Notes under the pieces: generated by a model
What the model was told of the DNA's origin: nothing
The model's input: the letters and a program-made list of their open reading frames with translations, nothing else
The model's database searches: none
In this document: piece by piece, positions 30,468-47,857 of the stretch
How positions within the stretch are numbered: position 1 is the first letter of the stretch
Layout of the letters: each line of letters starts with the position of its first letter
DNA from: Colwellia sp. PAMC 21821
GTDB taxonomy: Bacteria > Pseudomonadota > Gammaproteobacteria > Enterobacterales > Alteromonadaceae
Reading direction: 5' to 3'
Assembly (NCBI RefSeq): GCF_002077175.1
Contig: NZ_CP014943.1
Location: 1,178,001-1,242,000, forward strand
DNA length: 64,000 nucleotides
Made by a program: the position numbers and the translations under genes

Positions 30468-30470
30468 TAA

Positions 30471-30727
30471 TACCAAATGTAATAAGTTATTGACCAACTT
30501 TAAGCGAGGATAAATTGTTCAAGAATACATGTTTATTGTTCCAGACTAAACATAAGTACCTGCATCCCTGCAGGCAAGGCGTTTGATTGATTAGGGCATG
30601 GATGCCCGTAAGTAGAACAATGCAGGAGCAATTGTCGAGTAATAGCGGGCTATTAGGATTGAAAACAACGCAGTTATTGACGATTTAAACCGCCTTAAAA
30701 TGATCGATTATTTATTTCAATTGGTAT
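30471..30727. repeat. MITE-like repeat, copy A, unoccupied
   Basis: A 257-bp repeat bounded by TACCAA and TTGGTA. The outer 26 bp of the two ends match at 20 positions as inverted repeats. It is nearly the same sequence that surrounds both IS copies, but with no insertion: it reads GTACCTGC-AT-CCCTGCAGG across 30556-30573, with the AT core at 30564-30565. It is therefore the empty-site reference. It also differs from the two occupied copies by a short patch near 30652-30658. No coding sequence. Confidence 0.9.
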
Positions 30728-30811
30728 AACACAATTATGGGAATATGTATTACCGATACAATTCGATTCCCTCCGTTGATTTAACTTAACTTTCCTCACG
30801 GTTCAGAATAC

Positions 30812-35168: not shown

Positions 35169-35284
35169 TACCAAATGTATTAAGTTATTGACCAATTTTA
35201 AGCGAGGATAAATTGTTCAAGAATACATGTTTATTGTTCCAGACTAAACATAAGTACCTGCATATATGGACCCACTCCGTTTGC

Positions 35285-35559
35285 AAGACATTTAATCGTT
35301 ATGTAAGAGAAAATCATTGCTCTCATATATCCGGCCTGTTTATGAAGGATTTTTACCTTCTGGCCCCGATGGTTGTTTGCGCTCACACTCCTCATCATCC
35401 CTCCGGCTTTTTTATTAGCCAATGCAGGTACCAGGTTTTGTGCAAGCCAGTCTGACTATCTTACCATCCGATTAATTTATCTTTTGCAACTGAAGTAAAA
35501 GGGTTTTACTGTTATCTCATCACTGAAACCAATCTAACTTGCTTCAGTTTTGAGCTTTA
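35285..35559 (-). ncRNA. Candidate bridge RNA (seekRNA) of IS copy 1
   Basis: Non-coding tail after the transposase gene. On the minus strand the guide-like GTACCTGCAT is at 35422-35431 and AGGGAT at 35397-35402, on opposite strands of an internal loop as in copy 2. The apical loop between them has one extra base here. The boundaries are approximate. The structural reasoning is given in the copy 2 entry. Confidence 0.65.
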
Positions 35560-36576
35560 TTATATAGCCGGGCGATAACTTTCCCCCTTCGCCATTATTA
35601 CCCAAGCCATTCTTGCTATTTTATTCGCCACAGCAACGCATGCTTTGTTGTGTCCTCGTCGGGATTTTAACGCTTGTGCCCACAAACTAAATCGGTCAGT
35701 TTTGTTTTCACTGTGCCTTAATACTGCCCGGGCCCCGTGGATGTATAGTGTTCTTAAATAACTATTACCGCGTTTACTTATACCGAGTAAGGTGGCCTTT
35801 CCACCCGTTGAATGCTGCCCAGGAACAAGCCCAAGCCATGCCGAAAAATGTCGACCATTTACAAAGTCTTTTCCATCTCCTGCAGCTGCATAAGTAGCGC
35901 TAGCTGTGATTGCTCCAATACCTAATATTTCATCTAAGCGAACACATATTTCATTTTCTTTATTCATCGTGTTTAAGCGAACTTCACACGCTTTAAACTT
36001 CACTTCTGTGACTTGAAATTCAAGCCATAACTCATTAAATATCTCCCGACTTAAATACGTTAACTCATTTGTCGCATCCTCTAAAATATCCGGCAGTTCA
36101 TTGCGAATTGCAGAAATACCTTTATTGATGACAATGCCATATTCTCCTAACAAGCCTCGTATCTGACTTGCTAATGCTTTACGTTCTTTCTTTATGCGTT
36201 CACGTTGTCGATGGAAGTTTTGAATATCTTGTTGTTCTATCGATTTAATTGGCACAAACCTCATGGTCGGGCGTTGCGCTGCCTCTGCAATACCTTCGGC
36301 ATCGTTATAATCATTTTTATTGCCTTTAACGAAGGGTTTTACATATTGAGGCGCAATAAGTTTTACTTGGTGCCCCAATTCAATAAATTTTCTAGCCCAG
36401 TAGTTCGCACTGCCACAAGCTTCCATTACAATTAGGCAAGGCTCTAATGTTGCCATGAAACTCAACACTTGTTTTCTTCTTAATTGTTTCTTTTTTACAA
36501 ATCGCCCATTTTTATTCACAGCGAACATGTGAAAAATTGATTTTGCAATGTCTAAACCGATTGTAGTAATCTTCAT
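35560..36576 (-). CDS. IS110-family DEDD transposase (IS1111 group), copy 1
   Basis: A 338-residue recombinase, identical in sequence to the copy at 46.4 kb. The N-terminal RuvC-like domain has the DEDD set D9 (GLDIAKS), E52 (VMEACGS), D89 and D92 (KNDYNDAEGIAEA). After a helical middle (about 110-205), the C-terminal Tnp domain carries GIGAITASATYAAAGDG, LGLVPGQHSTGGK (candidate catalytic Ser256) and GISKRGNSYLRTLYIHGARAV. IS110 enzymes recombine a circular donor with target DNA under guidance of an element-encoded RNA. Intact, so probably active. Confidence 0.95.
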   Translation of the reverse strand: MKITTIGLDIAKSIFHMFAVNKNGRFVKKKQLRRKQVLSFMATLEPCLIVMEACGSANYWARKFIELGHQVKLIAPQYVKPFVKGNKNDYNDAEGIAEAAQRPTMRFVPIKSIEQQDIQNFHRQRERIKKERKALASQIRGLLGEYGIVINKGISAIRNELPDILEDATNELTYLSREIFNELWLEFQVTEVKFKACEVRLNTMNKENEICVRLDEILGIGAITASATYAAAGDGKDFVNGRHFSAWLGLVPGQHSTGGKATLLGISKRGNSYLRTLYIHGARAVLRHSENKTDRFSLWAQALKSRRGHNKACVAVANKIARMAWVIMAKGESYRPAI

Positions 36577-36852
36577 GTTGATCCACTCCGCTTTTATAAA
36601 TGATTGTTATCACTTTCATTTTGGCCCTAAAGAGGCCGGAAATAAAGTTGGAGTGGGTCCATACCATTATCCCTGCAGGCAAGGCGTTTGATTGATTAGG
36701 GCATGGATGCCCGTAAGTAGAACAATGCAGGAGCAATTGTCGAGTAATAGCGGGCGTGTGTGATTGAAAACAACGCAGTTATTGACGATTTAAACCGCCT
36801 TAAAATGATCGATTATTTATTTCAATTGGTATAAGCCATCTTCCGACCATTT

Positions 36853-46157: not shown

Positions 46158-46420
46158 TGGTATTATACCAATTGAAATAAATAATCGATCATTTTAAGGC
46201 GGTTTAAATCGTCAATAACTGCGTTGTTTTCAATCACACACGCCCGCTATTACTCGACAATTGCTCCTGCATTGTTCTACTTACGGGCATCCATGCCCTA
46301 ATCAATCAAACGCCTTGCCTGCAGGGATAATGGTATGGACCCACTCCAACTTTATTTCAGGCCTCTTTAGGGCCAAAATGAAAGTGACAACAATCATTTA
46401 TAAAAGCGGAGTGGATCAAC

Positions 46421-47437
46421 ATGAAGATTACTACAATCGGTTTAGACATTGCAAAATCAATTTTTCACATGTTCGCTGTGAATAAAAATGGGCGATTTGT
46501 AAAAAAGAAACAATTAAGAAGAAAACAAGTGTTGAGTTTCATGGCAACATTAGAGCCTTGCCTAATTGTAATGGAAGCTTGTGGCAGTGCGAACTACTGG
46601 GCTAGAAAATTTATTGAATTGGGGCACCAAGTAAAACTTATTGCGCCTCAATATGTAAAACCCTTCGTTAAAGGCAATAAAAATGATTATAACGATGCCG
46701 AAGGTATTGCAGAGGCAGCGCAACGCCCGACCATGAGGTTTGTGCCAATTAAATCGATAGAACAACAAGATATTCAAAACTTCCATCGACAACGTGAACG
46801 CATAAAGAAAGAACGTAAAGCATTAGCAAGTCAGATACGAGGCTTGTTAGGAGAATATGGCATTGTCATCAATAAAGGTATTTCTGCAATTCGCAATGAA
46901 CTGCCGGATATTTTAGAGGATGCGACAAATGAGTTAACGTATTTAAGTCGGGAGATATTTAATGAGTTATGGCTTGAATTTCAAGTCACAGAAGTGAAGT
47001 TTAAAGCGTGTGAAGTTCGCTTAAACACGATGAATAAAGAAAATGAAATATGTGTTCGCTTAGATGAAATATTAGGTATTGGAGCAATCACAGCTAGCGC
47101 TACTTATGCAGCTGCAGGAGATGGAAAAGACTTTGTAAATGGTCGACATTTTTCGGCATGGCTTGGGCTTGTTCCTGGGCAGCATTCAACGGGTGGAAAG
47201 GCCACCTTACTCGGTATAAGTAAACGCGGTAATAGTTATTTAAGAACACTATACATCCACGGGGCCCGGGCAGTATTAAGGCACAGTGAAAACAAAACTG
47301 ACCGATTTAGTTTGTGGGCACAAGCGTTAAAATCCCGACGAGGACACAACAAAGCATGCGTTGCTGTGGCGAATAAAATAGCAAGAATGGCTTGGGTAAT
47401 AATGGCGAAGGGGGAAAGTTATCGCCCGGCTATATAA
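46421..47437 (+). CDS. IS110-family DEDD transposase (IS1111 group), copy 2
   Basis: A 338-residue recombinase, the same protein as the copy at 35.6 kb. The DEDD residues are D9, E52, D89 and D92, and the likely nucleophile is Ser256 in GQHSTGGK. The frame is intact, with GTGGATC shortly before the ATG as a weak ribosome site. Because the two proteins are identical, one copy must be recent or the copies are homogenised. Confidence 0.95.
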   Translation: MKITTIGLDIAKSIFHMFAVNKNGRFVKKKQLRRKQVLSFMATLEPCLIVMEACGSANYWARKFIELGHQVKLIAPQYVKPFVKGNKNDYNDAEGIAEAAQRPTMRFVPIKSIEQQDIQNFHRQRERIKKERKALASQIRGLLGEYGIVINKGISAIRNELPDILEDATNELTYLSREIFNELWLEFQVTEVKFKACEVRLNTMNKENEICVRLDEILGIGAITASATYAAAGDGKDFVNGRHFSAWLGLVPGQHSTGGKATLLGISKRGNSYLRTLYIHGARAVLRHSENKTDRFSLWAQALKSRRGHNKACVAVANKIARMAWVIMAKGESYRPAI

Positions 47438-47440
47438 ATA

Positions 47441-47705
47441 AAGCTCAAAACTGAAGCAAGTTAGATTGGTTTCAGTGATGAGATAACAGTAAAACCCTTT
47501 TACTTCAGTTGCAAAAGATAAATTAATCGGATGGTAAGATAGTCAGACTGGCTTGCACAAAACCTGGTACCTGCATTGGCTAATAAAAAGCCGGAGGGAT
47601 GATGAGGAGTGTGAGCGCAAACAACCATCGGGGCCAGAAGGTAAAAATCCTTCATAAACAGGCCGGATATATGAGAGCAATGATTTTCTCTTACATAACG
47701 ATTAA
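47441..47705 (+). ncRNA. Candidate bridge RNA (seekRNA) of IS copy 2
   Basis: A first hairpin has ACTGAA (47450-47455) with TTCAGT (47471-47476). The target-loop candidate has an outer stem GCTTGCAC (47551-47558) with GTGTGAGC (47609-47616), plus CCT/AGG (47563-47565, 47605-47607). Its inner stem is TGGCT (47577-47581) with AGCCG (47589-47593). The internal loop between them carries GTACCTGCAT (47567-47576) on the 5' side and AGGGAT (47595-47600) on the 3' side. The first equals one target half plus AT core; the second is complementary to the other half plus core. A further hairpin GAAGG/CCTTC near 47637-47654 may belong to the donor loop, which I could not match convincingly. The ends are approximate. 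Confidence 0.7.
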
Positions 47706-47857
47706 ATGTCTTGCAAACGGAGTGGGTCCATATATGCAGGTACTTATGTTTAGTCTGGAACAATAAACATGTATTCTTGAACAATTTATCCTCGCTTAAA
47801 ATGGGTCAATAACTTATTACATTTGGTATTACAAATCATAACAATAATTTTCAGCAT

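Follow-up and report, generated by a model that had tools for sequence, protein, structure and literature searches.

The window analysed here, a stretch of 64,000 nucleotides from the 4.88-Mb, single-contig genome of Colwellia sp. PAMC 21821, contains a complete insertion sequence of the IS1111 group, a second copy of this element on the opposite strand, and an empty copy of the repeat that serves as its target. The features discussed below, in window coordinates, are the following.

30470..30728, + strand: empty MITE-like target repeat of about 259 bp
35264..36668, - strand: second copy of the element (locus L023), its low end derived from the element length of 1405 bp
46320..46328, + strand: left target half TGCAGGG and core AT, common to 24/25 copies
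46329..47733, + strand: complete IS1111-group element of 1405 bp, AT core excluded, its ends taken from the subterminal inverted repeats and the empty site at 30.5 kb
46329..46335, + strand: 7-bp left terminal extension AATGGTA, the right donor half
46336..46347, + strand: left subterminal inverted repeat TGGACCCACTCC
46421..47437, + strand: transposase, 338 aa, with DEDD_Tnp_IS110 and Transposase_20 domains (Pfam)
47499..47733, + strand: guide RNA region as aligned over 31 homologous tails (A1), the last 15 bases being inverted repeat and right extension; these are limits of the alignment
47551..47558, + strand: target-loop outer stem, 5' arm GCTTGCAC, pairing with 47609-47616
47567..47576, + strand: right target guide GTACCTGCAT, complement of the right target half and core (10/10 with its own site)
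47577..47593, + strand: target-loop inner hairpin, 3/4 counted pairs with compensatory change
47595..47600, + strand: left target guide AGGGAT, same strand as the left target half and core (6/6 with its own site)
47609..47616, + strand: target-loop outer stem, 3' arm GTGTGAGC, pairing with 47551-47558
47624..47629, + strand: candidate right donor guide ACCATC, in which ACCAT complements the left end AATGGTA
47632..47664, + strand: GGCC/GGCC stem bearing a hairpin, between the donor guides (helices 4 and 5, with 100% and 91.1% of cells paired)
47665..47673, + strand: left donor guide GGATATATG, in which TAT-AT (47668-47672) equals the right end and core
47711..47716, + strand: TTGCAA, predicted -35 box of the circular-form promoter, from the computed junction
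47719..47730, + strand: right subterminal inverted repeat GGAGTGGGTCCA
47731..47733, + strand: 3-bp right terminal extension TAT, the left donor half
47734..47743, + strand: core AT and right target half GCAGGTAC, 25/25 copies

Within the IS110 family, the element belongs to the IS1111-type insertion sequences, an assignment already made in the original prediction and now upheld by several features. Its transposase carries both the PF01548 and the PF02371 domain (a domain-level match), matches the NCBIfam model NF033542, "IS110 family RNA-guided transposase", with 346.2 bits against a cut-off of 140, and contains in its translation GLVPGQHSTG, which fits the C-terminal GL-P----S(T)G motif described for IS1111-group transposases (PMC11187229). 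Its similarity to the structurally solved transposases of ISCro4 (E 4.2e-6) and IS621 (E 6e-5) is weak. The 12-bp subterminal inverted repeat, with extensions of 7 bp and 3 bp, is present in 25/25 copies of the element, following the extension rule given for IS1111 elements (PMC11187229). A long non-coding region lies 3' of the gene; from the transposase stop codon to the end of the right core it measures 298 bases, the length first reported for this tail, and since the count runs through the right core, it includes the right inverted repeat. A single AT, common to the element junctions and the empty repeat at 30.5 kb, constitutes the core.

Where does the element insert? Mapping the guide/target matches at genomic insertion sites, a check proposed at the outset, placed all 25 full copies found at one point and in one orientation of one MITE-like repeat, whose ends read ATACCAAATG / CAATTGGTAT; the copy number is at least 25, a lower bound because only 40 of 72 candidates were scored. 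The 16-bp junction site is identical in 24 of these copies, and the exception, L022, carries CATGGAT instead of CAGGGAT, a change of one left-half base within a more diverged surrounding repeat. The empty target GTACCTGCATCCCTGCAGG, previously noted at 30.5 kb, is located at about 30557. Insertion occurs without target duplication beyond the core, as only AT is common on comparison with empty sites. The copies vary at 23 alignment columns, yet the guides are lost in none; a C-to-T change in the right target guide of L021 still permits a G-U pair. In L023, one base is missing at the transposase stop codon.

The counting of uninterrupted sites indicates how closely insertion follows this sequence. 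Allowing up to three mismatches to the 16-mer yields 37 uninterrupted matches in the genome, of which 11 are exact, 5 have a single mismatch, 1 has two and 20 have three; a reversed-pattern control yields 8. Exact sites are occupied in 24 of 35 cases, one-mismatch sites in 1 of 6, and sites with two or three mismatches in 0 of 21. The difference between exact and one-mismatch sites has a p value of 0.026, and that between exact sites and all those with 1-3 mismatches (1/27) a p value of 8e-8, which is generous because many of the three-mismatch matches probably arose by chance.

Matches to the repeat occur in at least 14 of the 16 further genomes from the genus. Among the matches listed, repeat positions 1-56 run straight into 106-259 at several places in genome G007, where the middle module with the element's target is thus absent. 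Half of one repeat copy, spanning positions 95-258, lies at C1:2339122-2339285, outside the 25 fetched occupied sites. Two empty repeats, L174 (C1:815723-815738) and L175 (C1:3059642-3059657), carry AT-AATGGTA in place of the target AT-GCAGGTA and, among 32 repeats compared, depart from the consensus only at AATGGTA. This heptamer equals the first seven left-end bases of the element; relative to the target, three bases differ and four are shared. These two sites could stem from a deletion at a 4-bp microhomology, from a strand exchange that was aborted, or from a single scar multiplied together with the repeat. For a related element, L051, no empty site was found in its genome with the one pattern tried. 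No title or abstract opening in the literature found names a MITE as an IS110 target, which is no proof of absence.

The tail of the element has a conserved RNA structure. Comparison over 31 homologous tails supports the stems of the original prediction, the coordinates of which proved exact: the outer stem of eight pairs, two of them G-U, shows compensatory change at 8/8 pairs with 94.8% of cells paired, and the inner stem joins TGGCT (47577-47581) with AGCCG (47589-47593). A third helix, CCT (47563-47565) with AGG (47605-47607), makes the target loop narrower. Over the five counted helices, 95.1% of 711 cells are paired, dropping to 33-45% when the structure is slid by 1-3 columns. Double-sided changes occur in 19 of 23 stem pairs, a figure reached by 0 of 500 shuffles, and number 138 in total, compared with a mean of 38.9 for shuffles and 20-33 for the slid structure. 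The double changes are the stronger evidence, because the paired percentage favours a structure derived from the same alignment. Folding of the single sequence gives evidence of modest weight (z -2.39, with 5 of 200 shuffles folding equally well). Outside the helix count lie two further RNAalifold proposals, a 2-bp helix and a pairing of the near-invariant GATG with CATC in the right donor slot; a third, pairing a 5'-side TTGC with the terminal TTGCAA, was omitted because TTGCAA suits the circle-junction promoter better. A search of Rfam returned no matching family, the sole listed entry, Atu_C9, falling outside the tail and far under the cut-off.

A lack of covariation between guides and insertion sites across relatives had been named beforehand as a refuting result; the comparison showed the opposite. 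We compared 173 loci, some fetched twice, with element ends recognised in 135 and not in 38. After removal of L154 for an N, the remaining 134 loci gave 90 distinct tails, which were aligned with MAFFT and from which the guide slots were read; five tails with short flanks were dropped, and clustering of the rest at 85% identity gave 64 clusters, with a single tail and a single site standing for each. Guide slots were compared both with the flanks, external to the element, and with its ends, and kinship was handled by 24 non-overlapping near-neighbour pairs and by a transposase tree of 126 branches. Both target slots covary with their own sites across the 64 clusters, with the expected polarity: the right target guide fits its own site at 7.22 of 10 positions and other sites at 4.57, and the left guide at 5.62 of 7 and 3.69, respectively, each unequalled in 20,000 permutations. 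The slots are those named in the original prediction, GTACCTGCAT at 47567-47576 and AGGGAT at 47595-47600, each matching a target half and core, with the top-strand complement first. In a scan of the whole tail, the right and left target matches are still prominent (z 10.5 and 8.3). Within the 24 sister pairs, the right guide fits its own site better in 17, worse in 4 and equally in 3 (p 0.007); for the left guide, the counts are 14 better, none worse, 7 ties and 3 identical (p 1e-4).

Individual cases illustrate both the agreement and its limits. L037 and L120 have the right guide in common and differ in the left, each left guide fitting its own left flank by eye. Within one genome, G482, two element types, L118, L140 and L184 as against L185 and L186, differ in both guides and correspondingly in their sites, with right-guide scores of 8/10, 8/10 and 9/10 for L184, L185 and L186. 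The right target guide matches fewer than 7 of 10 positions in 12 of the 64 clusters; of the low scores, that of L044 (4/10) is a true mismatch, that of L075 stems from truncation by the slot definition, and L026 reaches 7 only when its placement is shifted (4/10 in register, by eye). Later, 15 of the 38 loci without recognised ends were examined along with 8 newly fetched ones, and right-target-guide scores were obtained for 15 of these 23, among them several additional copies of elements within the 64; the guide scored above the mean of other targets in 14 of 15, but for 4 of the 15 its score was equalled or exceeded by over half of the other targets. Taken together, the tail almost certainly holds a target guide.

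Does the RNA also read the ends of the element? The original prediction had left the donor loop unmatched; comparison of relatives now places it, well for the left guide and more weakly for the right. The left donor guide fits its own end at 4.81 of 5 positions and others at 3.94, and the right donor guide at 5.22 of 7 and 4.39 (0/20,000 permutations each), figures that the permutation test overstates because donor ends track kinship, with 21 changes on the tree against 33.5 when shuffled. Wrong-strand controls stay at background level (z -2.0, 0.6 and 0.4) for all guides except the right donor guide, where the control is slightly raised (z 2.3); by the longest-run measure, the left-donor control has a z of 2.9. 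Among the 64 candidates, the own site fits better than any other in 26 clusters for the right target guide, 15 for the left target guide, 4 for the left donor guide and 2 for the right donor guide. ATGGTA near 47532, on the strand of the left end, was dropped as a donor guide because by eye it tracks the left end only in the near-invariant GATG, the candidate at 47624-47629 being better.

A target-only seekRNA, with the protein reading the donor ends through the inverted repeats and the donor-like RNA stretches without a base-pairing role, offers an alternative that we regard as unlikely. An 82-nt seekRNA with target matches supported transposition of ISEc11 and is described as sufficient, the role of the longer RNA being left open by that study (PMC11187229). 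The donor slots are moreover conserved, and sister pairs tell little, with donor ends identical in 16 pairs for the right guide (own better in 3, worse in 2, ties in 3) and in 17 of the 24 for the left (4 better, none worse, 3 ties). Against this alternative, the left donor slot equals the right end and core exactly in 54 of 64 clusters, rare variants included (TCTAT, TGTAT, TAGAT, TACAA and TAGGC), and on the transposase tree, with its 126 branches, 12 of the 14 changes in this slot share a branch with one of the 21 donor changes (p about 1e-9, treating all branches as alike). A protein binding the same motif in RNA and DNA could likewise produce this concordance. Nine of the 10 inexact clusters differ in the core dinucleotide only. 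Outside the 64, an uninterrupted site in G482, TCACAGAAGTGTTTGC, has the target core AA while the donor slot says AT, and the inserted copy L186 has AT on its left and AA on its right; a core mismatch is thus tolerated there. We consider it probable that the tail RNA of the IS1111 group is a full bispecific bridge RNA, with four guides covarying with both target halves and both element ends.

It is very improbable that the transposase itself reads a hairpin-prone DNA site and that the RNA match is secondary. When the two flanks are joined in the nearest 9 clusters (identity of 62% or more), inverted repeats appear, centred on ATGGAT- or AGGGAT-like sequences, with a mean arm of 5.3 bp in this clade compared with 3.3 bp permuted (0/5000, the core taken as AT), and L044 has such a flank hairpin though its right guide fits just 4/10. 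However, the 53 more distant of the 62 clusters (out of 64) taken into the palindrome test are without excess (2.96 against 2.86; 1065 of 5000 permutations as high), the guides covary over the whole set, and entry into a near-palindrome in a single orientation needs an asymmetric reader. Palindromic targets as a general rule were therefore rejected, being confined to the nearest clade and absent below 62% identity. The hairpin flanks of the nearest 9 clusters, even where the right guide is poor as in L044, hint at a preference for hairpin repeats besides pairing. As for a regulatory or antisense RNA for the transposase with coincidental matches, conserved structure by itself tells no function, but the permutation, strand and sister-pair tests and the covariation with flanking DNA outside the element contradict it and leave it scarcely credible.

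With the anatomy of the element, its insertion at a single site in a single orientation, the conserved RNA structure, and the covariation of guides with target and donor DNA shown, least firmly for the right donor guide, it is highly probable that this IS1111-type element carries a 3' tail encoding a bispecific guide RNA, donor guides included, and we propose the following model. The element would excise as a circle, whose joined ends would form a TTGCAA-16-TATAAT promoter. The computed junction of right end, core and left end reads TTGCAA-16-TATAAT, junctions over the 64 clusters score a mean of 9.28 of 12 as promoters, compared with 7.30 when base-shuffled, and circles of these families are described as creating a promoter (PMC11187229). 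From this junction promoter the transposase and tail would be transcribed. In the branched second part of the RNA, one donor guide would pair with the left end and the other with the right end and core, and a complex of transposase and RNA would bring the circle junction and the repeat together for recombination at the AT core, always in one orientation. We infer from the sequence comparisons that the tail RNA is expressed and directs insertion into the repeat; likewise, circle, transcription, complex formation and catalysis are steps that the sequence suggests.

How does this RNA relate to known systems? Judged by its sequence, it is a bridge RNA or seekRNA of the IS1111 type, a kind already known; what is added here are the donor guides and a statistical test of guide/DNA covariation. 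As in the seekRNA elements ISEc11, ISPa11, ISKpn4 and ISPst6, the RNA lies in a non-coding region downstream of the transposase gene; IS1111 seekRNA elements also have subterminal inverted repeats of 11-13 bp, extended by 7 bp and 3 bp, a top-strand-complementary guide 5' of the bottom-strand match, and natural re-direction between relatives, all as found here (PMC11187229). Known targets of such elements include REP and attC sequences (PMC11187229), whereas here both the element and its target, a MITE-like repeat, are new, and guides for the donor ends are also proposed. Donor-binding nucleotides in the multiloop of predicted IS1111 bridge RNAs have been assigned by manual inspection of single members (PMC11208160); our assignment, likewise donor-binding, rests on permutation and tree tests over 64 clusters. 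No systematic test of donor covariation in IS1111 elements is announced in the titles and abstract openings surveyed, a scope outside which most subscription papers and bioRxiv fall.

The bridge RNA of IS621, of the IS110 group, has two target and two donor guides, a paired core, and the same strand logic as the RNA described here (PMC11208160). Unlike that of IS621, which lies at the left end, the present RNA lies at the right end; its donor guides flank a stem with a hairpin, and the transposases are weakly similar in sequence. In IS621 itself, the order of the target guides is reversed relative to the IS1111 type. The same reversal is described between IS110-type and IS1111-type seekRNAs in general (PMC11187229).

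The insertion of IS110 and IS1111 elements under RNA guidance, described in 2024, is of interest for the development of DNA insertion tools. The Colwellia element offers a clean natural case: at least 25 copies share one site, the empty sites have been counted, and there are many relatives whose guides differ. Here one mobile element multiplies within another, probably mobile, repeat. Covariation of the donor guides makes it testable whether IS1111 RNAs read the element ends besides the target. If true, the four-guide reading would unite two accounts for the IS1111 group, that of the target-only seekRNA and that of the IS621 bridge, and one element family would let target, core and donor specificity be read from sequence.
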